NCBI GenBank assembly: GCA_022750115.1 | Contig: JAKIWI010000010.1 | Coordinates: 1-60,370, forward strand | DNA: 60,370 bases | Direction of reading: 5' to 3' | Source: Thermoplasmata archaeon | GTDB taxonomy: Archaea > Thermoplasmatota > Thermoplasmata > Lutacidiplasmatales > UBA184 | Shown: piece by piece, positions 1-60,113 of the stretch | How the letters are laid out: every line of letters begins with the position of its first letter | Position numbering within the stretch: the first letter of the stretch is position 1 | Notes under the pieces: generated by a model | Told to the model about the DNA's origin: nothing | What the model saw: the letters and a program-made list of their open reading frames with translations, nothing else | Databases searched by the model: none | Made by a program: the position numbers and the translations under genes

Positions 1-118
1 CCCCCGGCCTCTGCTTTGCGAAAGCAGCGATCTTCCGCTGATCTACGTGCCCGCGGTCCGCCGGAGGGAGGCGGCCGCTTAAGGGTTGCCGGAAAGAGGC
101 TTTCCGTAGAGCGCGAGG
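1..118. other. No gene seen at window edge
   Basis: This is the 3' side of the leftmost minus-strand gene. I see no convincing coding sequence, RNA gene or terminator in it. Confidence 0.5.
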
Positions 119-3552: not shown

Positions 3553-3560
3553 GTTTATGA
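3553..3560 (+). promoter_or_regulatory. TATA box of the tRNA-Gln/tRNA-Leu transcript
   Basis: GTTTATGA lies 25-32 bases before the first base of tRNA-Gln, the expected spacing for an archaeal box A. No equivalent box precedes tRNA-Leu, so the two tRNAs are probably transcribed together. Confidence 0.6.
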
Positions 3561-3584: not shown

Positions 3585-3691
3585 AGCCCCGTAGTGTAGT
3601 GGCCAATCATGCGAGACTCTGGATCTCGCGACGCAGGTTCGAACGCCAACCGGCGTCACATCGCCGGGGGCCGGAACTCCTGCCGGGGCTA
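3585..3691 (+). tRNA. tRNA-Gln (anticodon CUG) with a T-loop intron
   Basis: The acceptor arm AGCCCCG (3585-3591) pairs perfectly with CGGGGCT (3684-3690), and A3691 is the discriminator. The anticodon stem CGAGA/TCTCG (3612-3616/3624-3628) carries the loop CTCTGGA, giving anticodon CTG. The T-stem GCAGG (3633-3637) pairs with CCTGC (3679-3683), but 41 bases lie between the two strands instead of 7. Removing 3644-3677 leaves the canonical loop TTCGAAT. The A1-U72 pair is typical of archaeal tRNA-Gln, which is made through Glu-tRNA(Gln) amidation; this agrees with the archaeal GluRS in the window. No CCA is encoded. Only the intron makes the gene unusual; standard scanners may miss it. Confidence 0.9.
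3644..3677 (+). other. 34-nt intron in tRNA-Gln at position 59/60
   Basis: A canonical bulge-helix-bulge can be drawn. The outer helix is the T-stem. The central 4-bp helix is TTCG (3638-3641) with CGGA (3672-3675), including one T-G wobble. The 5' bulge is A3642 A3643 | C3644 and the 3' bulge is A3676 C3677 | T3678. The inner helix is GCC (3645-3647) with GGC (3669-3671), and a further hairpin CCGGCG/CGCCGG (3650-3655/3662-3667) closes the intron. Cutting after the second base of each bulge gives the spliced T-loop TTCGAAT. Confidence 0.87.
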
Positions 3692-3715: not shown

Positions 3716-3748
3716 TCTCACGATGCGGGGGTGCTCCAGCTCGGCCAA

Positions 3749-3775
3749 TCCGGTCCGGTATCGGGCCGGGGCCTT
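3749..3775 (+). other. 27-nt intron in tRNA-Leu D-arm at position 21/22
   Basis: The bulge-helix-bulge is perfect. The central helix is GGCC (3743-3746) with GGCC (3770-3773). The 5' bulge is A3747 A3748 | T3749 and the 3' bulge is T3774 T3775 | C3776. The inner helix CCGG (3750-3753) pairs with CCGG (3766-3769) and continues as TCC/GGG with one wobble around a six-base loop. The outer helix is CTC (3740-3742) with GAG (3777-3779), a pairing that must switch to the D-stem after splicing. Confidence 0.85.
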
Positions 3776-3823
3776 CGAGGCAGGGCTTAGAACCCTGTTG
3801 CCAAGGGCATGCGCCGGTTCAAA

Positions 3824-3855
3824 GGGCGATGGGCGGAGCGCCCACCGCCGGGAAC
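3824..3855 (+). other. 32-nt intron in tRNA-Leu T-loop at position 59/60
   Basis: The 5' bulge is A3822 A3823 | G3824 and the 3' bulge is A3854 C3855 | T3856. The inner helix GGCG (3825-3828) pairs with CGCC (3846-3849), and the intron has its own hairpin TGGGCG GAG CGCCCA (3830-3844). The central helix TTCA (3818-3821) with GGGA (3850-3853) has three pairs plus an A-G mismatch, so it is slightly relaxed. The T-stem is the outer helix. Position and 3' end (GGAAC before T60) are the same as in the tRNA-Gln intron. Confidence 0.82.
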
Positions 3856-4794
3856 TCCGGCCCCCCGCATCCCCCGCCCCCGGGGGGAGCTCTGGCTAGC
3901 TCGCCCCTCGGGCCGCGGTCCCCACCCCCGACCCCGACGGAAATCCTCCGGCTCTCGACCACGGACCTCGACGGGCTGCTCGACCGCCTCGAGCGGGAGG
4001 TGCCGTCGGCCCCGCCGCTCGTCCGTCTCCCGACCGCGCCGTTCCACGAAGCGGTCGTGTTCGGCGACACCCACGGCGACTACCGTTCGACCGAACGCGT
4101 CGCCTCCCACTTCCTCGAGGCTCCCGAGGAGAGGATGCTGATCGGTCTCGGCGACTACGTCGACCGGGCGCCCGCCGACTGCCCCGGCGGCTCCGTCGCG
4201 AACGCGCTCTACCTCCTGGGGCTGTCCGCCCGCTACCCCGACCGCGTCGTCCTGGTGAAGGGAAATCACGAGCTCGACCGGTGGGTCGGCGTGCTCCCCC
4301 ACGACCTTCCGGAGGAGGTCGAGCGGTTGTGGGGCGCCGGGGGGAGTCGATACCTTCGGATCCGATCCCTCCTCGAGCGGGGGCCGTTCGCCGCGGTGTC
4401 CCCGAGCGGGTGCTACCTCGCGCACGGAGGGTTCCCGCGCACGGAGACCGAGGGCCGATGGGAGTCGATGTTCGACGCCTCGGAAGAGGAGCTCACACTC
4501 GAGGTCGGATGGGGCGAGTGCGGGGCTTCGCGCTCTCGGCGCTTGGTCGTTCGGCCGTTCACGGAGCCCGACCTGGAGACGTTTCTCCGCGTGAGCGGGA
4601 CACGTTTGTTTCTCCGGGGTCACGACCCGGATCTTGCCGGGCAGTGGGTGTTCGGGGCGAGGTGCCTCACGCTCCACACGAGTCGGACCTACGAGCGGTT
4701 CGGCGGGGTGCTGTTTGCCATGGTCCCCTTGGACCGGGCGCTCGATTCGGCCGCCGATGTGGTGCTCGAGCGAATTGTCGCGAAGCGCCCCTGA
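3829..4794 (+). CDS. Calcineurin-like (PPP-family) metallophosphatase
   Basis: This open frame encodes a two-metal phosphoesterase of the serine/threonine phosphatase type. With the ATG at 3829 as residue 1, GDTHGD is at 79-84, GDYVDR at 108-113 and GNHE at 145-148, followed by a conserved LAHGG around residue 200 and LRGHD near 262, so the metal and phosphate ligands are present. The start is unresolved. The ATG at 3829 lies inside the T-loop intron of tRNA-Leu, yet strongly GC3-biased codons extend upstream of the next in-frame GTG at 4003 to about 3940. Either the mRNA starts inside the tRNA gene, a CTG is used, or the protein starts at 4003. The substrate is unknown; it ends convergently with a membrane-protein gene. 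Confidence 0.8.
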   Translation: MGGAPTAGNSGPPHPPPPGGALASSPLGPRSPPPTPTEILRLSTTDLDGLLDRLEREVPSAPPLVRLPTAPFHEAVVFGDTHGDYRSTERVASHFLEAPEERMLIGLGDYVDRAPADCPGGSVANALYLLGLSARYPDRVVLVKGNHELDRWVGVLPHDLPEEVERLWGAGGSRYLRIRSLLERGPFAAVSPSGCYLAHGGFPRTETEGRWESMFDASEEELTLEVGWGECGASRSRRLVVRPFTEPDLETFLRVSGTRLFLRGHDPDLAGQWVFGARCLTLHTSRTYERFGGVLFAMVPLDRALDSAADVVLERIVAKRP

Positions 4795-51538: not shown

Positions 51539-52173
51539 GCGAGCACCTCCGCCGGTCGCCCTGCGATGCCGGCGAGCTCTGCCGCGAGTCGTCGAGCCTC
51601 AACGCGACCGGCCTCCGAGAGCGTATACGTCCGCCCGCGTTTGATTCCACCGACGAGAACAAGGCCCTTCTTGACCAGTGTGTCAAGGTAGGTGTCGACC
51701 CGCAGGAGCGAGTATCCGGTCTGCCGCAGCGCCTTAACGAGGAAGAAACCCGTCGTGCCCTGCTGGTCGACCACGTCGAACGCCCCGAGCAAGACGACGG
51801 CCGCGTCGCTCACACGTTCCGAGCCGGAGGCGTCGGGGGGAAACTTGGGGCTGAGGACGAAGACATCTCCGATCCGCTTTGTCACGGATTTGAAGATAGA
51901 TGACTCGGGAATCGGGGCCACGTCCCCAGTCCCACCCCCAAACGTGTCAAGTTGTCCGACGGAGACTCCGGCGGGTCCATCCGAGGCATGTGCTCCACCA
52001 GCCGGCGTGACAGGCATAGCATCCTGCAATGGACCCCCCACCGCGTTCGATCCCAGCTGCGGGGACAGGCCCCGCTCCTCCAACACCTTCAACAGGCGGT
52101 CGACCTCTTCACTTGTTTCGCCTTCAACGGAGAGGTCGAACCTCCGTGTCAGGACTCGCACGCGAGCTACCAT
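51535..52173 (-). CDS. Winged-helix-like hypothetical protein
   Basis: The 212-residue protein has an N-terminal strand-rich part (VRVLTRRFDLSVEGETSEEVDRLLKVLEERG), a linker, and a C-terminal region (VKALRQTGYSLLRVDTYLDTLVKKGLVLVGGIKRGRTYTLSEAGRVEARRL) that reads as a winged helix-turn-helix. TATA CATATAGC at 52194-52201 supports a leaderless start. It may regulate the element. Confidence 0.68.
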   Translation of the reverse strand: MVARVRVLTRRFDLSVEGETSEEVDRLLKVLEERGLSPQLGSNAVGGPLQDAMPVTPAGGAHASDGPAGVSVGQLDTFGGGTGDVAPIPESSIFKSVTKRIGDVFVLSPKFPPDASGSERVSDAAVVLLGAFDVVDQQGTTGFFLVKALRQTGYSLLRVDTYLDTLVKKGLVLVGGIKRGRTYTLSEAGRVEARRLAAELAGIAGRPAEVLA

Positions 52174-52514
52174 TGCATCGCGGAGTGCGGCCGGCTATAT
52201 GAACGACACCCCGGCCGGCTGGGTCATGAAACACGTTTGACGGGCGTTAAGCGCTCCAGCTCTGGCAGGATTCGGCGCTTCCGAAGGACTGTGTCGTCGG
52301 GAAAATATGGGCCGTTCCGAAAAGAAGGCGATGGTCCGTCACGCTGTGAACCGTCTATGGGGTGTTTCAAGCAATGCGCCCGCCGACTAGCCCACCCTGC
52401 GAGCGGGGCCGACGGAGCTGGCGACCATCCTCGAGGAGTAGCGTTCCCGATCGACACCGGACCCGCGACCCCGGTCGACGTGAGGGGCTCGGGGGCCACA
52501 CCCGGCAGACCAAG
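52174..52514. other. Intergenic stretch, no gene supported
   Basis: Apart from the TATA box at its left edge I see no reliable gene. A 27-codon frame MGRSEKKAMVRHAVNRLWGV at 52308 has a plausible start but is too short to support. Confidence 0.4.
52194..52201 (-). promoter_or_regulatory. TATA box of the wHTH operon
   Basis: CATATAGC on the minus strand, 21-28 bases before the ATG at 52173. Confidence 0.6.
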
Positions 52515-53042
52515 TCAGTTTACGGAGATCAGAACTGTTTCAGATTGGGCCGCCGGTCCCGAGTTTTCCGCTTCGAGGAGGAAAGAGACCTCGGCCTGGG
52601 CTTGAGCCCCGCCTTCGGCACAGAATGGAACTTGCATCGGGAACCTCACCCCGCCGAGCCCGGAGTAGTAAGGGGCTACTGACCCGACGGTGAACCCCCC
52701 GAGCGAGGAACCGCTTACTCCTTCGATCTCGTGGTACGGGCCAGCGCAGGGGGTTGGCTCCGCCGTATCAATTGGGATTGAAATCTCCTCTCCCGCCCCA
52801 TAGGGAAGGAGTTCGGGGCACCCCGAGCAGGTAAAGTTAGTCGAGAGGCCGCTGGATCCGTTCCCTACGAAGACGACTGCGACCTGCTCGAGAGTCACCC
52901 CATTCGACGGGGGATGCTTCGATAGGCCGAATGCGGCGGGGTCGAACACCACCGTACTGAGGACGATAATCGCGACGACGACGACTACTGCCGCAACTGC
53001 GAAGATCCTCTTCCCACGAGCCGGAGTCCCCATTCCCGACAT
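52515..53042 (-). CDS. Membrane-anchored secreted protein of the element
   Basis: The 175-residue protein has an N-terminal TM anchor (IFAVAAVVVVVAIIVLSTVV at about 13-32) and a beta-rich outer domain with four cysteines (CSGCPELL, CAGPYH, FCAEG). The start MSGMGTPARGK has two ATGs. A TATA-like TCTAAGTAG upstream (about 53063-53071) contains the GGTCTAA motif also seen before the transposase. Confidence 0.65.
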   Translation of the reverse strand: MSGMGTPARGKRIFAVAAVVVVVAIIVLSTVVFDPAAFGLSKHPPSNGVTLEQVAVVFVGNGSSGLSTNFTCSGCPELLPYGAGEEISIPIDTAEPTPCAGPYHEIEGVSGSSLGGFTVGSVAPYYSGLGGVRFPMQVPFCAEGGAQAQAEVSFLLEAENSGPAAQSETVLISVN

Positions 53043-53130
53043 CCTATCGTCGACAAGATCGCCCTACTTAGACCTACGCGAGTACCTACTCTATGCCCGT
53101 TTCAAAGACCTGCTGTCGCGTCGAGTTCGG

Positions 53131-53322
53131 ATGCCCGCGCGAACTCTCGAAGCTGTCTCGACCTGCCAAAAGACCATCCCGAGTCGGGCGAACTCCAAGT
53201 CGCTGCGGGCGACGATCCCTGCAATCGTCGTTCAGATTCTCCAGCTCGAACCTGGCGAGAAGATCCGGTGGGTCGTCGAGACCTCGACTGGTGGCGTGAC
53301 GGTGCGCCGCGAACGCCGCTAG
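53131..53322 (+). CDS. AbrB/SpoVT-like DNA-binding protein
   Basis: The 63-residue protein ends with RATIPAIVVQILQLEPGEKIRWVVETSTGGVTVRRE, the swapped-hairpin pattern of AbrB/MazE-type DNA-binding domains (about 25-62). These act as antitoxins or transition regulators. A toxin is not evident next to it. Confidence 0.65.
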   Translation: MPARTLEAVSTCQKTIPSRANSKSLRATIPAIVVQILQLEPGEKIRWVVETSTGGVTVRRERR

Positions 53323-53450
53323 GGTTGCGCCAACTTTGAGCCCGCCACGTCCCTGACCGCCCCCGTAGAGAGCTTTGTCGGTACAAATGTAGGGCAACAT
53401 TCGCATTGTTGATATAGCTACAACGTTTGCCGACGTTTGCTGAGGGACCC

Positions 53451-53996
53451 ATGTCCGAGCAAAGCGCCACAAAGCAGATCGTCCGCATCCCCGTCCGCCT
53501 GAAGGACGGCAAAATCGAGATCGTCGAACTCGAGAACCCGAGTGAAGCGTCAATTCGCGCAGTACTGGCGTTCTCCCTTGAGCCCGCCAATCCCGAGGTG
53601 CCCTCCTCGCGGTTGTCTCAGGCGTCCGCCTCAGGAACCATTCGCCGCGCGCGTTCTCGAGGGGGCAGGGGCGGACCCAGGGTGCCTCACTGGCGAGAAA
53701 TCCGCGACTGGATCCTCGCGAAAGCTGGACCGGGAGACTTCCGACACACGACGGCTCAGATTCACGAGGAGTTCATTGGACGAGGGCTCTCGTTCGACCA
53801 GACGGATCTCGCACAGGTGCGCCTCGCCAGAGCGGTCGGATCGAGCCATCGCAGGGCTCGGAAGGAAATCGCACGGGCAGAGCGCGGCCAGTGGGTTGGT
53901 CGGCCGGATGGCGTCCGCAATCAGGGAGCGACAACGATCTGGACGTTCATCCGTGAAGGGCCCGGCCGCGTCGCGAATCTGCCCGAGAACCGCTAG
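53451..53996 (+). CDS. Hypothetical protein between two AbrB-like genes
   Basis: The 181-residue protein has a beta-rich N-terminus (KQIVRIPVRLKDGKIEIVEL), a basic linker, and a helical C-terminal half (HWREIRDWILAKAGPGDFRHTTAQIHEEFI...). It may bind DNA. The ATG at 53451 is used. A TATA-like GATATAGC lies at about 53411-53418. I do not recognise a family. Confidence 0.5.
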   Translation: MSEQSATKQIVRIPVRLKDGKIEIVELENPSEASIRAVLAFSLEPANPEVPSSRLSQASASGTIRRARSRGGRGGPRVPHWREIRDWILAKAGPGDFRHTTAQIHEEFIGRGLSFDQTDLAQVRLARAVGSSHRRARKEIARAERGQWVGRPDGVRNQGATTIWTFIREGPGRVANLPENR

Positions 53997-54161
53997 AACG
54001 CACGAACGCGGAACGACGAGGGAGGACTTCCGAAAATGGTGAGAGACGCGGACCGATTCCGGGGGGTCTTGCTGAGGGACCTTCCGAGCCGGATCCGCGT
54101 CGATACCCGATCAACGCGGCACAACTTAGATGCGCAGCACGGCGGTCGGAAGGCCGTCGGG

Positions 54162-54344
54162 CTACTGCGACTTTCCCCTCGGCTTGGACTTGCGTACGCT
54201 GAGGACGCCAGCCCGTACGGAGAAATCGAGCGGCTCCTTGTCCCTCCACCCGAGCCGTTCGATCTCTTCCGGCGGGATCTGGATCGTCCAGCGGTAGTAC
54301 ACTTTGCCGTCAACCTCGCGGTTGCGGCCTCGCTTGAGCTGCAC
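54162..54344 (-). CDS. AbrB-like DNA-binding protein 2
   Basis: The 60-residue protein has YYRWTIQIPPEEIERLGWRDKEPLDFSVRAGVLSVRKSK, the AbrB-like pattern. It is divergent from the transposase, with an AT-rich promoter between. It may repress the transposase promoter. Confidence 0.65.
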   Translation of the reverse strand: MQLKRGRNREVDGKVYYRWTIQIPPEEIERLGWRDKEPLDFSVRAGVLSVRKSKPRGKSQ

Positions 54345-54372
54345 GATATAACCACGTCGGGGAAGTATTAGT

Positions 54373-54444
54373 AATTAGGGGTCTAACGCGACGTTCAATT
54401 AGAGGTCTAAGTGATTATGTACTCCCACCGCAATAGAGGTCTAA
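54373..54444 (+). repeat. Three copies of AATTAGRGGTCTAA before the transposase
   Basis: AATTAGGGGTCTAA (54373-54386), AATTAGAGGTCTAA (54397-54410) and AATAGAGGTCTAA (54432-54444) are direct repeats spaced 24 and about 34 bases. The third lies within the first codons of the transposase frame. They are candidate operators or tandem promoter elements. Confidence 0.65.
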
Positions 54445-55769
54445 GGACGTACCGGGGGTGGGCAAGATTGTACGAGGACGGCCTCGATGATGATCGGGTT
54501 GAGCGCGGGAGGGCGCTCTCGCAGATTCCGGGGGCCGTCACCGAGACGGAACTGAATGTCTTCGCAGTCAAAGCCCAGAGCAAGGGCGGGTACTATCGGG
54601 TCGAGATTGAGGGCTACTTCGGTCAGTGCGAATGCGAAGACTTCACCTCACGCGGTGGGAAGACGTGTAAACACCTCCTCGCGGTCCGGTTTTTCCTCGA
54701 GAAGCGAGCGACAGGCAAGCACGCGGACACCCCCGCCGAGATTCCGAAGCGGCGCTACTCGGAGCAGTGGAGGGCATCCGACCAAGCCCAGACGAACGAG
54801 TATCCGCTATTCGGAAAGCTAGCCGCGGGACTCGCCGCCACAGTCCCAGAGCCGCCTTATCGCACAGGCAGGCCGCCAATCTCTATCCGCGACGGACTCT
54901 TCTGTGCGCTGCAGCGGGAGTACCTCGGGAAGTCACTCCGACGTGCGGGGAGCCACTACGAGATCTCCCTCGAGAGGGACCTGATTCGGCGCGTACCGGG
55001 GTACTGCCACGTCTCGAAGCTCCTGAATCGTCCGGAGTTAACCCCGATCCTTCAAGAGCTGATCACGAAGTCCGCCCTACCGTTCATCTCGATCGACCGT
55101 GGTTTCGCTCCCGACTCGACGGGGATCCGGACGACATCGTTCGGGGAGTGGATGGCAGAAAAGCACGACGACGACCGAGAACACCACTGGCTCAAACTCC
55201 ACGCGATCATCGGGACGAAGTCCCACATCGTTGCCTCCGTCGTCATCGGCGAGAAGAACAGCGCAGACTCGCCGCAGTTCGACGCGCTCGTCCGCGGACT
55301 GCTGACCGGGGGATTCCACCCCGACGAGATCTACGCAGACAAGGGCTACCTCGCTCACTCGAACTTTGAACTCGCTGAGGAACTCGGAATCGAACTTTTC
55401 GTCCCCTTCAAATCGAACTCGAAGCCGCGTTCCACCACGAGGGTCGCGAACAGTGCCGGCCAAAAGTCTCACTCGAAGCTTTGGACGAGGTCGTACTGGT
55501 TCTATCAGGAGCACCGGACCGAGTGGGAAGGGAAGTACCATCAACGATCGAACGTCGAGGCGGTGTTCTCATCCATCAAGCGGAAGTTCGGGGAGACACT
55601 CCGATCCCGAACTCCGACGGCTCAGGTCAACGAGCTTCTCTGCAAGGTACTCGCCTACAACATCACTCGGGTGATTCAGGGCAGCTTTGAATTCGGCTCG
55701 AAGATCGATTTCGGTCCGAGCGTTGCCGCACTGGGGGAAGATGGGCGAGGGGCATCCGCCTCCCCATGA
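54411..55769 (+). CDS. SWIM zinc-finger/DDE transposase
   Basis: The 452-residue protein has an N-terminal SWIM zinc finger (YFGQCECEDFTSRGGKTCKHLLAVRFFLE, about residues 70-97, CxCx(n)CxH) and a C-terminal DDE transposase domain: first Asp in SIDRGFAPDSTG, second in YADKGYLAHS, Glu in RSNVEAVFSSIKRKFGE. This is IS4/IS5-like. The start (GTG 54411 or ATG 54417) is uncertain because a repeat motif lies within the first codons. It is the only recombinase in the element. Confidence 0.88.
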   Translation: MIMYSHRNRGLRTYRGWARLYEDGLDDDRVERGRALSQIPGAVTETELNVFAVKAQSKGGYYRVEIEGYFGQCECEDFTSRGGKTCKHLLAVRFFLEKRATGKHADTPAEIPKRRYSEQWRASDQAQTNEYPLFGKLAAGLAATVPEPPYRTGRPPISIRDGLFCALQREYLGKSLRRAGSHYEISLERDLIRRVPGYCHVSKLLNRPELTPILQELITKSALPFISIDRGFAPDSTGIRTTSFGEWMAEKHDDDREHHWLKLHAIIGTKSHIVASVVIGEKNSADSPQFDALVRGLLTGGFHPDEIYADKGYLAHSNFELAEELGIELFVPFKSNSKPRSTTRVANSAGQKSHSKLWTRSYWFYQEHRTEWEGKYHQRSNVEAVFSSIKRKFGETLRSRTPTAQVNELLCKVLAYNITRVIQGSFEFGSKIDFGPSVAALGEDGRGASASP

Positions 55770-55982
55770 GTCTTTTTGAGGCACGCCGCCGCTCGGTCAT
55801 CTGGGCGGCGGGAACCTGAAGCAATCCGAAGTTCCCGAGCTGCACTACATCGTCGCGCGGATCCGAGAGCATTCCGATCTCGCATATCAGGCTCAAATCG
55901 TCACCGGGGCGGAGGGGTCGCCGATGTTAGTGGAGCTAGGGGGCAAGTCACATAACCCGGCAGTTGAGTACGGAATACTGTC
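55770..55982. other. Spacer downstream of the transposase
   Basis: No gene seen. A CATAAC box at about 55952-55957 may serve the GTG at 55983. I found no inverted partner of the GGTCTAA repeats here that would define an independent insertion sequence. Confidence 0.4.
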
Positions 55983-56948
55983 GTGCCCGAGCTCTATCGC
56001 AACATCTACTTCTACCACGTTCACGCGGAGTTGGACGACGGCGGAGATGCTAGCGCGGTCGCCCTCGCACCGCTCCTGAGAAAGGCAGCTGCGATCCCGT
56101 TCGATGGAACTCCGAGCCGTTACCTTGTAAGTGGGGACGGCGACGCCACCGCGCTTTGGCTGAAGGACGGCCACGGTACCTCGGTTGCAGGACGCCTGAC
56201 TAAGACTCGGAGATCCGGACTTCCAGGCGCAGAGCGAGGAGGCCAGGAACGCGATATACCGCTCGACGACGGTGAGGGTCTGCTCGAGCCCTGCCACTTC
56301 GAGTTGTTCGACGGCCAGTTCTTGGCTTACGAGTACAACCACTACGGCCCTCGGGCGAGCGTCCTCCCATTCTATATCGAACGGAAGCTTCCGGAGGACG
56401 TCTCTCGAATCTTCATTCATCCGATCCTCCGCCCAAACGTGGCGGGTCGACTGCGAGAGATTGGCGAAGTCAAGCTGCTCCGACTCGCAGTGGCTAGAGA
56501 TCGAATCGAGGAAACTCGCCGGCTCTCCCCCTCTTTGCACACCGCATTCGAGGCCGCTGCGAATACGACCACGGCGGAGGTCGTAGAGCTCACCCTGCGT
56601 GGAGAAAAGCACTCTCGGGCAAAATGGTCGCTCCCATTTGGAGTCAGGAAAATTGCTGCCTACCTGAGGGTCCCTGAGGCTATGGAGGGGACTCAGGAGT
56701 TCGTGATCGAGGCTGACAACACAAGGACGGGCGAGGCGGACACCTTCGATCTCTTGCGTGAAGCTCTCGTGCTGAACAAGGCCGTTCAGTACCAGCAGGA
56801 CGGAAAGTCTCGGAGGGTAGTATCAGCGAGTGCTTACCGGGCGATCGAAGCCGCTCGGGACGAGGTTGCCGGTGCCTTGGCCTCTTATAGACACTCCCTG
56901 TCCTGCCCCTCGGTGAGACCAAGTGGTCGAGCCGAAGGAGCATCCTAG
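55983..56948 (+). CDS. Hypothetical protein upstream of a 4-TM protein
   Basis: The 321-residue soluble protein has strand-rich N-terminal part (NIYFYHVHAELDDGG), the region LFDGQFLAYEYNHYGPRASVLPFYIE at about 108-133, and a helical C-terminus. Proteins with a similar EYNxxGPR pattern occur widely, but I cannot name the family. The start is GTG. Its 3' end overlaps the membrane-protein gene by 26 bases, so the two are an operon. Confidence 0.65.
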   Translation: MPELYRNIYFYHVHAELDDGGDASAVALAPLLRKAAAIPFDGTPSRYLVSGDGDATALWLKDGHGTSVAGRLTKTRRSGLPGAERGGQERDIPLDDGEGLLEPCHFELFDGQFLAYEYNHYGPRASVLPFYIERKLPEDVSRIFIHPILRPNVAGRLREIGEVKLLRLAVARDRIEETRRLSPSLHTAFEAAANTTTAEVVELTLRGEKHSRAKWSLPFGVRKIAAYLRVPEAMEGTQEFVIEADNTRTGEADTFDLLREALVLNKAVQYQQDGKSRRVVSASAYRAIEAARDEVAGALASYRHSLSCPSVRPSGRAEGAS

Positions 56949-57429
56949 GCCAAAGTCGCTCTATCTGGTCTCAACGATTGTCAGCCTCGCACTCGTTACC
57001 TGGGCGCATTACTACCCGGGTTCCGCGGCCAGTCTCATTCGAGGGAGCGAGACCCAAGTTTACTCGGCTCTGGCGACAATTGGCGCCACGCTTCTCGGGT
57101 TCGTGATCGTTGCCCTCACCGTCCTGCTGGCGCTACCGGAAACTCCAGCCCTGAAGACACTCCGAAGGAGCCCATGGTTTCCCCGGGTTTATGGCACCTT
57201 CATCGACACGATTGGATGGCTCGCACTCACGACGGCTGCTTTCGTCGTCGCACTCGTTCTAGCTCCGACGGCGCCCTGGATCCTGCCGGTAAACGGAATC
57301 CTCCTCTGGGTCGGATTGATGGCGGCAATTTGGCTCGTGCAGTCAGTCTGGATCCTGAGCTGGATGGTCAGGCTCGCCCTCCCCCCAAGCCCACCGCCTA
57401 GTGTGGACCTTTCGGGCCGGTCAGGTTAG
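56923..57429 (+). CDS. Four-TM membrane protein
   Basis: The 168-residue protein has TM segments at about 14-30, 45-70, 92-115 and 121-150 (YSALATIGATLLGFVIVALTVLLALP is the second). The start is GTG inside the upstream gene. As a partner of a soluble protein it may form a membrane effector, which is inference. Confidence 0.68.
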   Translation: MVEPKEHPRPKSLYLVSTIVSLALVTWAHYYPGSAASLIRGSETQVYSALATIGATLLGFVIVALTVLLALPETPALKTLRRSPWFPRVYGTFIDTIGWLALTTAAFVVALVLAPTAPWILPVNGILLWVGLMAAIWLVQSVWILSWMVRLALPPSPPPSVDLSGRSG

Positions 57430-57615
57430 TTGGTGATTCTGTGCGCGCCGTTCTTGAACGAGGCCCCGCCGGTCCCAATGTCGCGTTTTTCTTATCCCAC
57501 GGCTTGTGAGCCCGCGCGGGTAGGGCCTTCGGCGGGACCTGGCCCACAAGCACCGCGGCCTCTCGACCGCCCCGGCTTTATAACCAAACCAACGGCTAGG
57601 GATCCTGGAGGGACC
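57430..57615. promoter_or_regulatory. Spacer with TATA box at 57576-57584
   Basis: CTTTATAAC lies about 36 bases before the ATG at 57616, with GGAGG as ribosome site 5 bases before the ATG. Confidence 0.6.
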
Positions 57616-58182
57616 ATGCCGACGGATCTGGAGATGGCGGCTTCGATCGAGACTGAGCTTTCCCCGCGGTTCAGAGCCATTCTATCGCAGCTTCCGGGTT
57701 GGCTCGATCCGGGTGGGCTGTCCGTCTCGCAACTCTGGCGGATGGTTGACCAAGCAGCTTGGGATTCCCAAAACCGGTTCGGGGTCAGCAGCCACGCGCA
57801 AAGCGATGCGGCCATACTGCTCGGCTTTGTCGAGAGGGTCCGACAGGCGGGGTACTACCCCCGGGGACCCGCCTCGCCGCCGAAGGATTCGTTTCACCGC
57901 TGGCTCTGGAAGCTAACCCTGAATCTCAGCGCGGAGATGACGAGTCTGCTCGAGATTTGGAGGCCGCCGGCGGCAGTCTACCGCCAGCCCCCCTACTATG
58001 TCGTGTTCTACGCGGCTATTCTTGTGACGTCTGTGGGAGCACTGGCTCTTACCGGCTATCGAGGCGCTGCGGGGCTCCTCGCAATTGCTGGGGTCGTGAT
58101 GGTGTATCTCACCCTAGGGGATCGGTTTTGGGTCTTTGTCCGCCGGCCTTCGATTGGAAGGCGTCGGGGAGACTCGGACTAG
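57616..58182 (+). CDS. Hypothetical protein with C-terminal TM hairpin
   Basis: The 188-residue protein has a soluble helical N-terminal part of about 120 residues (LSQLPGWLDPGGLSVSQLWRM) and two C-terminal TM segments at about 132-151 and 156-173. A hydrophobic pair at the end is a common layout for membrane-disrupting effectors, but nothing else identifies the function. Confidence 0.65.
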   Translation: MPTDLEMAASIETELSPRFRAILSQLPGWLDPGGLSVSQLWRMVDQAAWDSQNRFGVSSHAQSDAAILLGFVERVRQAGYYPRGPASPPKDSFHRWLWKLTLNLSAEMTSLLEIWRPPAAVYRQPPYYVVFYAAILVTSVGALALTGYRGAAGLLAIAGVVMVYLTLGDRFWVFVRRPSIGRRRGDSD

Positions 58183-58406
58183 GCGCCTTCGCGGGGCGGA
58201 ACTCGACTTGGCTCGCCCTTCCTAAGAGCAGGGAGTGTCCCCGCGTTTCCCGACTGGAGCAACTCGCCCTCGCAGCTCCCCGAGGCCGCCGCGCCGACTC
58301 CCGCGTGACGGCGAGGCGAGATGACAACAGGACCCGAGCGCAGGCTTCGGTGCTGGTCCGCCACCTTACCCCTTTATCGCGGGGTTAACGTAAGCCCCTG
58401 TCCAGA
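58183..58406. promoter_or_regulatory. Spacer with TATA box at 58372-58378
   Basis: CTTTATC lies 29-35 bases before the ATG at 58407. The rest shows no gene. Confidence 0.5.
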
Positions 58407-59189
58407 ATGGAAGAGTCGAGGGCACGGAGCGTTCGGACTTGGGCAACGGTCGGCTTGCTTGCCATCGCGGCGGTCTCGTTCGTCGCCTCGTATGTGGTCC
58501 CCGCGGTCCGGGGCGGGAACTCGCCCGCACTCACTGACCTGGTTCTGGCGGCTGTGCTGCTCCTCGCGATATTGTTGGGCCTGGTAACCTTTCCGACGAA
58601 ACAAGTCTCAGTCTACCTTGCGAAGCGATCGCTCCGAAAAAGCGTGCCGGCGCCGGCCGACATCTCTCGAGATCTGTTGGCTCACCTAAAGACGGCTCGG
58701 AGGATATGGGAGGTCGGCGGCCCTCACCAGTACTCGGACTCGTTCGAGTATTGCGCTGAAGCGGTGCTCAACCGTCTCCCGACTGATTCCCGCATAGTTG
58801 GAGACGATCGCAAACAGATCTTCCGAGAGCAAGCGTACTCCCTACTGACGGGCTGGCGAATTGCCGGCGAGCTCCAAGAACACCTATTGTCCGAAGTCGA
58901 CGGCTTGGTTCAGGAGTATGCACCCAAACTCGACACGAACACAGTGGTGGCGCTCCTCTTCGATCTCTACACCTTGGCGCTATCTGGGACCAAACTGGCG
59001 AACCAGTTCGTGCAATCGGTCGCGAATGCCGGGCCTGACGCGCTCGACAAAAGCACCCGAGACCAATGGCGAGAATTTGCCGACAAGGCAAACCGACTGG
59101 GCCAAGACATCACGACGTTGGGCGACAAGGTCAACACCGTGACGCGAGCCAACGACAGCTTCTACCTACCCCAAGTGAAGCACCTCTAG
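58407..59189 (+). CDS. Two-TM membrane protein, putative effector
   Basis: The 260-residue protein has TM segments at about 11-31 and 43-63, then a cytosolic helical domain of nearly 200 residues (e.g. DSFEYCAEAVLNRLPTD, QAYSLLTGWRIAGELQEHL). It lies 21 bases upstream of the cyclase-like gene on the same strand, so the two form an operon. The layout recalls the TM-effector of Pycsar systems; no nucleotide-binding motif is visible by eye. Confidence 0.7.
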   Translation: MEESRARSVRTWATVGLLAIAAVSFVASYVVPAVRGGNSPALTDLVLAAVLLLAILLGLVTFPTKQVSVYLAKRSLRKSVPAPADISRDLLAHLKTARRIWEVGGPHQYSDSFEYCAEAVLNRLPTDSRIVGDDRKQIFREQAYSLLTGWRIAGELQEHLLSEVDGLVQEYAPKLDTNTVVALLFDLYTLALSGTKLANQFVQSVANAGPDALDKSTRDQWREFADKANRLGQDITTLGDKVNTVTRANDSFYLPQVKHL

Positions 59190-59210
59190 ATCGATCCGGA
59201 GCGGGCTCTG

Positions 59211-60113
59211 ATGGGTGACCCGAAGTCTTTCTTCGGAAACGCGACGGTGGTCGGAGCCGACGGAAAGCCGGCGGTATTCGAGGAGCGACCAGCACCCGCG
59301 CCGCCACCCACTGGCCAGAACTCGGCTCGACGAACTCAGGGGCTCGTCCTTGTGGCGGACCGGCTCGGAACAGTCGCAGATCGATCTCCTGCAGAGTGGA
59401 TGCACTTTCTCGACCTGAGGCGGAAGCTGTTGAACAAGGCAAAGGCAACTGCAGCTTCAGATGTAACGGTGATTCACGGCGGAACATCCGGGACGATTCA
59501 GTACTCGACGAGCAAAGTCGTGCCATGGGGATTCGGCTTCTCCGACACGGTCGCAATCTGTTTTGAGGTCAGCATGGACCCCCCAGACGTCCTTCGAGCC
59601 GTCGGTCAGGAAGTACAAGCGCTGTTCCTGGCCGCCCTAGGACAAGGAGACTTGCTCAGAGGCGCCGCCGCGTGTGGGGAATTTTACGCGGATGGGGAGA
59701 TAGTCTGTGGCCCCGCAGTGAACGAGGCGGGGAAACTATTCGACCTAGCCGACTGGGCCGGGATCGTTCTGGGACCATCGACGGGGAAGTCGCTCGATCC
59801 GGGCTTGAATCTCGAACCCACCTTTCCGTTTCGACGTTGGAGCGTGCCACTCCATGTGAGACATTCGGCTGAAATCGAGTGGCAGGAGCTGTGGGCCCTT
59901 GACTGGGCCACGGGGAACGGGAAGTTGTTCCTCGACGCGGGACTCTGGGCCCCAACGATTGAAGACACTGTGCTACCGCTCTTCGGGGCGAATCCCCACC
60001 CGCCTGAGGATCAGAAACGACGCAACACCCTCGCGTTCATTCGCGGGATGCAGCGTGCGCAATCCGAGAGAACTCTCGAGGCGATGGCGAGATTCGAGCA
60101 GCGGCGGGGGTGA
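59211..60113 (+). CDS. Class III nucleotide-cyclase-like protein
   Basis: The 300-residue protein has a disordered N-terminus (about 1-42), then a cyclase-like domain: LVLVAD50 as first metal Asp, FGFSD112TVAICFE as second, LLRGAAACGEFYADGE at 148-163 and CGPAVNEAGKLFDLADWAGIV at 166-186, which fits the G-x-x-VN-x-A-(A/G)-(R/K)-L motif of class III cyclases with Lys replacing the usual Arg. The C-terminal 110 residues are unassigned. Catalysis is inferred, not shown; a degenerate or regulatory role remains possible. It is the last gene before the right end. Confidence 0.65.
   Translation: MGDPKSFFGNATVVGADGKPAVFEERPAPAPPPTGQNSARRTQGLVLVADRLGTVADRSPAEWMHFLDLRRKLLNKAKATAASDVTVIHGGTSGTIQYSTSKVVPWGFGFSDTVAICFEVSMDPPDVLRAVGQEVQALFLAALGQGDLLRGAAACGEFYADGEIVCGPAVNEAGKLFDLADWAGIVLGPSTGKSLDPGLNLEPTFPFRRWSVPLHVRHSAEIEWQELWALDWATGNGKLFLDAGLWAPTIEDTVLPLFGANPHPPEDQKRRNTLAFIRGMQRAQSERTLEAMARFEQRRG

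Follow-up and report, generated by a model that had tools for sequence, protein, structure and literature searches.

According to a review, Euryarchaeota with alpha4 or alpha2 splicing endonucleases carry introns in fewer than 10% of their tRNA genes, as a single intron at the canonical place (PMC4090602). Enzymes of the alpha'2 type, which are without the ASL, are described as having a strict motif specificity that is limited to the canonical bulge-helix-bulge (BHB) (PMC12397907), and the same restriction is given in PMC4033280. The alpha'2 enzyme of A. fulgidus was reported to act on full-length precursors, from which it can take out BHL introns at 37/38 (PMC6379350), homodimeric endonucleases have been credited with cutting BHL-like motifs, and the homodimeric enzyme of Ferroplasma, which belongs to the Thermoplasmata, cuts a mini-BHB at 30 °C (PMC8707768). 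Multi-intron tRNAs are listed for Methanopyrus kandleri and Methanothermobacter thermautotrophicus (PMC4033280). The archaeal mode of tRNAscan-SE was used in the genome paper on Lutacidiplasmatales, and the word "intron" is absent from its main text (PMC9287336). In the literature that we searched, which consisted mostly of papers outside subscription, no report of non-canonical tRNA introns in Thermoplasmatota was recognised.

Here we describe a tRNA-Leu(UAG) gene of a soil archaeon of the order Lutacidiplasmatales (Thermoplasmatota). It lies in a window of 60,370 nucleotides, the whole stretch of DNA analysed, which is contig C3 of a 2.12-Mb draft genome estimated to be 90.4% complete. The GC content of the window is 0.66-0.71 over the first 48 kb, and a drop from about 0.69 to 0.61 is seen at 52001-60000. 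A search of the draft genome for 16S rRNA found none, and its taxonomic placement is based on the nearest neighbours of its splicing endonuclease, on genome size and GC content, and on kinship to the compared genomes. Judging from the sequence and its orthologues, we put at roughly 0.95 the probability that two introns are spliced out of a working tRNA-Leu(UAG). Taken singly, the gene is of a kind already described; several archaeal groups are known to have non-canonical and multiple introns in their tRNAs. It exemplifies a load of non-canonical introns that extends across the Lutacidiplasmatales, and the interest lies in this clade pattern more than in the gene.

The tRNA-Leu(UAG) gene and the adjoining tRNA-Gln(CUG)

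The gene was recovered by an intron-aware finder that accepts an intron at 37/38 as well as in the 5' half and the T loop, and that was supplied with no location (Table 1). An earlier note, made from the sequence alone, had proposed tRNA-Leu(UAG) with 27 nt at 21/22 and 32 nt at 59/60, and the finder returned identical boundaries, anticodon and lengths. Once the introns are removed, the exons form the canonical cloverleaf of one isoacceptor. Across the splice junction of intron 2, the finder output reads ...GGTTCAAA|TCCGGC.... Over the whole window the highest scores were those of Leu(UAG) (30.65), Gln(CUG) (30.59) and Leu(CAA) (29.6), followed by a call at 26.05; one dinucleotide-shuffled copy of the window gave a top score of 25.45. 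False calls elsewhere reached 26.25 next to another tRNA and 28.1, the highest met, on the strand opposite tRNA-Lys(UUU), so that the finder score alone is no proof and the comparative evidence is weightier. A Leu covariance model, which included the gene's own spliced sequence, also recovered 3725-3869 at 62.7 bits with large inserts at 21/22 and 59/60.

Table 1. Features of the tRNA-Gln(CUG)/tRNA-Leu(UAG) locus, in positions of the window
Feature	Position	Strand	Remarks
Box A candidate TTTATG	3554..3559	+	about 26 nt upstream of tRNA-Gln
tRNA-Gln(CUG), 34-nt intron at 59/60 (3644-3677)	3585..3691	+	finder score 30.59
tRNA-Leu(UAG) gene, two putative introns	3725..3869	+	finder score 30.65; Leu covariance model 62.7 bits
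Exon 1, positions 1-21	3725..3748	+	ends ...GGCCAA
Intron 1, 27 nt, D arm, at 21/22	3749..3775	+	BHB; exactly absent in G071, G062
Exon 2, positions 22-59, anticodon TAG, long variable arm	3776..3823	+	begins CGAGG...
Intron 2, 32 nt, T loop, at 59/60	3824..3855	+	absent in G036, G038-G043
Exon 3, positions 60-73	3856..3869	+	

Standard tools do not report this gene. ARAGORN is shown to misread such genes: in the window it gives a wrong Gln (a 75-nt gene at 3585-3659) and no Leu at 3725-3869, and the Leu gene is also missed with its intron option. At the gathering threshold of Rfam, neither tRNA-Leu(UAG) nor tRNA-Gln(CUG) is reported. Because both fail to detect the gene, ARAGORN and Rfam are unusable as a check on it. 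The expectation that most annotation would miss the gene is borne out for these two, but it may not hold for tRNAscan-SE 2.0, whose archaeal mode seeks non-canonical introns by default (PMC8450103).

The neighbouring tRNA-Gln(CUG) has a 59/60 intron of its own, which the earlier note overlooked and which is found in 47/47 Gln(CUG) copies parsed beside Leu(UAG). The TTTATG upstream of tRNA-Gln, which is a probable box A, has similar TTTAT/CTTAT motifs upstream in each of 8 genomes, and by eye no box A was seen in the 33-nt spacer between the two genes. Thus, tRNA-Gln(CUG) and tRNA-Leu(UAG) probably form one transcript. On the other side, a listed phosphoesterase-like reading frame (window 3829-4794, + strand) starts inside the tRNA-Leu gene; its true start is probably downstream of 3869.

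Splice motifs and relatives with and without each intron

Intron 1 and its flanking exon bases can be folded into a full h-B-H-B-h' motif, with outer helix CTC/GAG, bulge AAT, central helix GGCC/GGCC, bulge TTC and inner helix CCGG/CCGG; the GGCC/GGCC helix between three-base bulges was found just as it had been described before. For intron 2, the T stem serves as outer helix and the TTC of the T loop pairs with the 3' end of the intron, with bulges AAG and ACT and then an inner hairpin. Its central helix, TTCA/GGGA, has three of four pairs, with an A-G mismatch at position 57, and is weaker than the canonical one. This is short of a strict 4-bp BHB and makes a relaxed BHB, which is compatible with membership, relaxed forms being known among archaeal BHB-intron tRNA genes. 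Archaeal EndA cuts after the second base of each bulge, and cuts placed in this way reproduce the previously proposed junctions at both introns. When folded by itself, intron 2 forms a hairpin with one unpaired base before it and six after it, a fold that several of the genome's other 59/60 introns resemble.

The Leu model was run over 31 genomes. A two-intron model, run over 106 genomes of the order, gave matches at E 1e-12 in 85 of them. Matches of 145-153 nt were obtained in 74/106 genomes (63/78 in the window's genus, 6/6 in g17 and 5/6 in g18), 121-nt matches in two genomes of the window's genus (G071 and G062), and 116-120 nt matches in the seven matched genomes of g14, g15 and g16; the match was 87 nt long in G034 and 98 nt in G020. 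At this threshold and with strict filters, 21/106 genomes were unmatched, and the two of them that were read (G019 and G021, from another family of the order) have a Leu(UAG) without either intron. In G020, Leu(UAG) has a single 13-nt intron at 59/60 and the first intron is absent, which makes three further genomes in the order that are without one or both introns.

Besides the window, 50 loci were read, 49 of them parsed and one (G012) by eye. Among the window and the parsed loci, 40 have both introns, seven the first only (G036 and G038-G043), two the second only (G071 and G062) and one neither (G034). G012 also has both by eye, and its tRNA-Leu(UAG) (L329) carries C at position 33, where U is nearly universal. 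The seven genomes without the second intron belong to three other genera of the window's family. The gene of G071 and G062 (...CTCGGCCAACGAGGCAGGG...) is the predicted product of removing intron 1, and that of G038 and G040 (...GGTTCAAATCCGGC...) is what excision of intron 2 is predicted to give; the remaining five first-intron-only genomes read ...GGTTCGAATCCGGC....

The introns themselves change rapidly while their splice helices are kept. Among the 47 carriers of intron 1, there are 46 distinct introns of 24-35 nt, and the four central pairs hold in 47/47. Moreover, G038-G040 have GGTC on the exon strand and GACC on the intron strand vs GGCC/GGCC elsewhere, so that a change in the exon is compensated by one in the intron. 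All 47/47 also keep the first inner pair, as C-G or G-C, and pairing becomes weaker outward (second outer pair 40/47, fourth inner pair 36/47). In 8 aligned sequences of intron 1, 99.0% of 96 cells are paired, vs at most 60.4% when the partner is slid, and covariation is 0.339 vs 0.193 for shuffled sequences, with 0/500 shuffles as high. The 42 carriers of intron 2 all have different introns; three of the four central pairs are found in 42/42, and A57 is opposite G in 40 of them and opposite T in the other 2. Gaps put the inner helix of intron 2 out of register in the 8-sequence alignment; this helix was therefore left out of the covariation count, and geometry taken from the intron ends was used instead. 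The three pairs at 54-56 are found in 45/45 of the 59/60 introns vs 12.7% of windows in those introns, a figure that is biased toward the intron reading and counts as support only, because the finder rewards pairing when choosing boundaries.

Two real introns are thus supported by orthologues that are without exactly one or the other at the predicted junctions, together with covariation of the splice helices. The locus could instead be a decayed pseudogene with insertions, with a good copy elsewhere doing the work, and in a draft genome that is 90% complete such a copy might be missing in a gap. However, no second Leu(UAG), for which the earlier note had advised a check, was found in the draft genome by searches that located other isoacceptors, 14 isoacceptors carry the same 59/60 interruption, and the exons are near-constant over 40 genomes while the introns change: 6/86 positions of the mature sequence vary among the 39 two-intron loci that were parsed outside the window. 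We consider the pseudogene highly improbable and largely refuted by this exon conservation. Still less credible is an artefact of assembly or binning: the compared genomes are mostly draft assemblies, but the same two sites are interrupted in 40 parsed genomes with 46/47 first and 42/42 second introns distinct, and Leu(UAG) adjoins tRNA-Gln in most parsed genomes.

We infer the direction of gains and losses across these relatives. G071 and G062 have similar second introns, so that the two genomes probably share one loss of intron 1; indeed, its absence there is most simply explained by one loss, because intron 1 is otherwise usual within the genus.

Non-canonical introns across the order and the predicted splicing

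In the window's genome, genes were located for 46 isoacceptors, and at least 23 introns were found in 21 of these 46 tRNA genes: 14 at 59/60, 5 in the D arm and 4 at 37/38. The gene is no isolated case: 19 of the 23 introns found in the genome lie off 37/38 and are non-canonical. The earlier note's view that multi-intron tRNAs are known mainly from Thermoproteales and are unusual in a euryarchaeal-looking genome is qualified by the multi-intron tRNAs already listed for two Euryarchaeota (PMC4033280). Two genes of the genome have two introns, Leu(UAG) and Lys(UUU). All 14 isoacceptors with a 59/60 intron close to a normal T loop. In these introns, the base facing position 57 is C in 6/6 G57 genes and G in 7/8 A57 genes (Fisher p 0.005).

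Every tRNA match was read in the window's genome, and for G018, G020, G021, G023 and G026 only matches of intron-suggesting length or score were fetched, the rest being taken as intronless from their length. Among the fetched and parsed candidates only, 33 introns were counted in G020, 14 in G021, 15 in G023 and 3, all at 37/38, in G026. Intron counts are lower bounds, because the finder is restricted to the 5' half, 37/38 and the T loop and requires T33 and TTC. Indeed, two genes with C33 escaped it, Glu(UUC) of the window's genome and Leu(UAG) of G012. The finder made no call in L214, L227, L255, L258, L259, L260 and L263, and the one in L262 looks false; the counts leave out one candidate each in L234 and L248 and include an intron of G021 Ser(GCU) despite a poor motif.

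Several other tRNA genes deserve mention. tRNA-Lys(UUU) (L202, G000:C16:760-1273) has introns of 31 nt in the D arm and 32 nt at 59/60. The same arms are interrupted in G018, G020, G021 and G023, so that this two-intron state looks old. G020 has three-intron Leu(UAA) and Arg(CCG) genes (L158, L242), whose introns at 37/38 and 59/60 are AT-rich and only 13-14 nt long. In another family of the class, G028 has two-intron Leu(UAA) and Leu(GAG) genes (L159, L160), and the multi-intron trait thus reaches beyond the order. The tRNA-Trp of the window's genome (L119, G000:C6:35000-35600) has an 88-nt intron at 37/38 whose core resembles by eye those of G018, G021 and G026, and which is reminiscent of the known tRNA-Trp intron with a C/D guide RNA inside it. 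tRNA-Glu(UUC) (L015, G000:C19:16471-16545) has C at position 33, not the near-universal U. tRNA-Ala(CGC) is split by a contig break, with its 5' part at window 1-52 (- strand); an overlapping 3' part with an uninterrupted T loop closes contig C18 (L332). A second, cut copy of Arg(CCG) lies at the end of C19.

One EndA gene was found (L031:718-1776), of 353 residues with two PF01974 domains, an architecture of the fused alpha'2 type. Among proteins of known structure, its best relatives are archaeal EndAs, and its best sequence matches come from Thermoplasmata genomes, including Candidatus Lutacidiplasma silvani (82%). In this one gene with its two domains, no separate beta subunit, third unit or CSL/ASL loop was detected: aligned with M. 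jannaschii or A. fulgidus, it has no insert of 11-18 residues at the CSL/ASL site, and there is no long insertion relative to distant Thermoplasmata kin, the insertions that mark the closest kin among 27 aligned EndAs being about one residue. It therefore does not appear to belong to the broad-specificity class ((alpha-beta)2 or epsilon2). A Tyr, a His and a Lys, which we presume to be the catalytic residues, are invariant in the alignment of 27 EndAs. PF01974 was matched in 27 of 31 genomes, exactly twice in 25; G005 has one match and G011 three, probably due to broken contigs, and the four of the 31 genomes in which none was found are 59-73% complete. The two-domain EndA is common to intron-rich and intron-poor relatives, its frame being identical in type in the intron-poor G026 and the intron-rich G020. 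RtcB is present too (577.5 bits), so the genome has genes for both endonuclease and ligase.

Taken together, a precursor with two introns, probably co-transcribed with tRNA-Gln(CUG), may be processed as follows. Each intron with its flanking exon bases would fold into a BHB, in which EndA would cleave the two bulges, and the exons would then be ligated by RtcB. At intron 1, G23 A24 G25 would pair with CUC at precursor 16-18 and, after removal of the intron, re-pair with C10 U11 C12 into the mature D stem, as read from the sequence. At intron 2, U54 U55 C56 would pair with the 3' end of the intron, with the T stem as outer helix, and the T loop would close only once this intron is spliced. Transcription, cutting, ligation and the order of the splicing events are predicted for this precursor.

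It seems quite likely that the single fused alpha'2 EndA removes both introns. The T-loop intron might instead need another activity or a modified enzyme, EndA taking out intron 1 only. The A57-G mismatch, seen in 40/42 orthologues, leaves only 3 standard central pairs, as in 8/14 of the 59/60 introns of the genome, and alpha'2 enzymes are described as strict (PMC12397907, PMC4033280). However, 3-pair central helices also occur at 37/38 (2/4 in the window's genome and 3/3 in the intron-poor G026), only one EndA gene was found in the genome, the near-constant mismatch looks tolerated or selected rather than decayed, and homodimers are credited with BHL-like motifs (PMC8707768). A second activity is therefore an unlikely explanation, and removal of both introns by the one EndA is preferred.

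Intron origin and comparison with known systems

The introns might have spread by copying between tRNA genes within the genome, as proposed for Thermoproteales, which is compatible with splicing by EndA. The mean similarity of 59/60 introns exceeds that of shuffled introns in the window's genome (0.072 vs 0.016, sd 0.015), in G018 (0.039 vs -0.013, sd 0.014) and in G020 (-0.197 vs -0.252, sd 0.022), and a pair as similar as the best real one arises in 3, 1 and 9 of 100 shuffles, respectively. Moreover, Arg(UCU) and Arg(UCG) of G020 (L231, L233) have 13-nt introns at 59/60 that differ at one base. However, the lists of the window's genome and of G018 contain no near-identical pair, and the pair in G020 is only 13 nt long. 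The excess similarity may also come from shared folding, because shuffling does away with the hairpin on which every intron depends. Copying is thus possible but doubtful.

Two aspects are new: a lineage-wide load of 59/60 and D-arm introns alongside an unaltered alpha'2 enzyme, and a series of natural orthologues in which each intron is present in some and absent from others. In at least three families of the order (f1, f2 and f3), genomes break the one-canonical-intron rule of the review (PMC4090602). If EndA alone removes T-loop introns with a 3-bp helix and the 13-nt introns of G020, the link between endonuclease architecture and intron repertoire would fail, an outcome that we hold to be slightly the more probable one, and the spread of introns would then be limited by something other than this architecture. 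With none, first only, both and second only represented in one order, gain and precise loss of tRNA introns become directly traceable. Intron gain, loss and enzyme specificity are thus directly testable, given near-constant exons, fast introns and natural gene pairs that are one intron apart.

Crenarchaeal tRNA introns come close to what is seen here, with several BHB introns per gene, non-canonical sites including 59/60 and a high load (PMC4090602, PMC4033280). In contrast, the crenarchaeal lineages have an alpha2-beta2 endonuclease and many near-alike introns across tRNAs, whereas an alpha'2 enzyme and weak similarity between introns are found here. Atabeyarchaeia and Freyarchaeia, archaea of wetland soil, share the high load, the non-canonical positions and several introns per gene; they differ in being Asgard archaea with introns in 92-95% of their tRNA genes, compared with 21/46 here (PMC11291895). 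Methanopyrus and Methanothermobacter also have more than one intron in a euryarchaeal tRNA gene, but these cases are listed for single species whereas here most genomes of a family are affected, and the Methanopyrus endonuclease is heterotetrameric, not a fused alpha'2 (PMC4033280). Finally, the endonuclease of Ferroplasma acidarmanus, from the same phylum, is of the same fused two-unit type and cuts a BHB outside tRNA at 30 °C, with 288 residues vs 353 here (PMC8707768).
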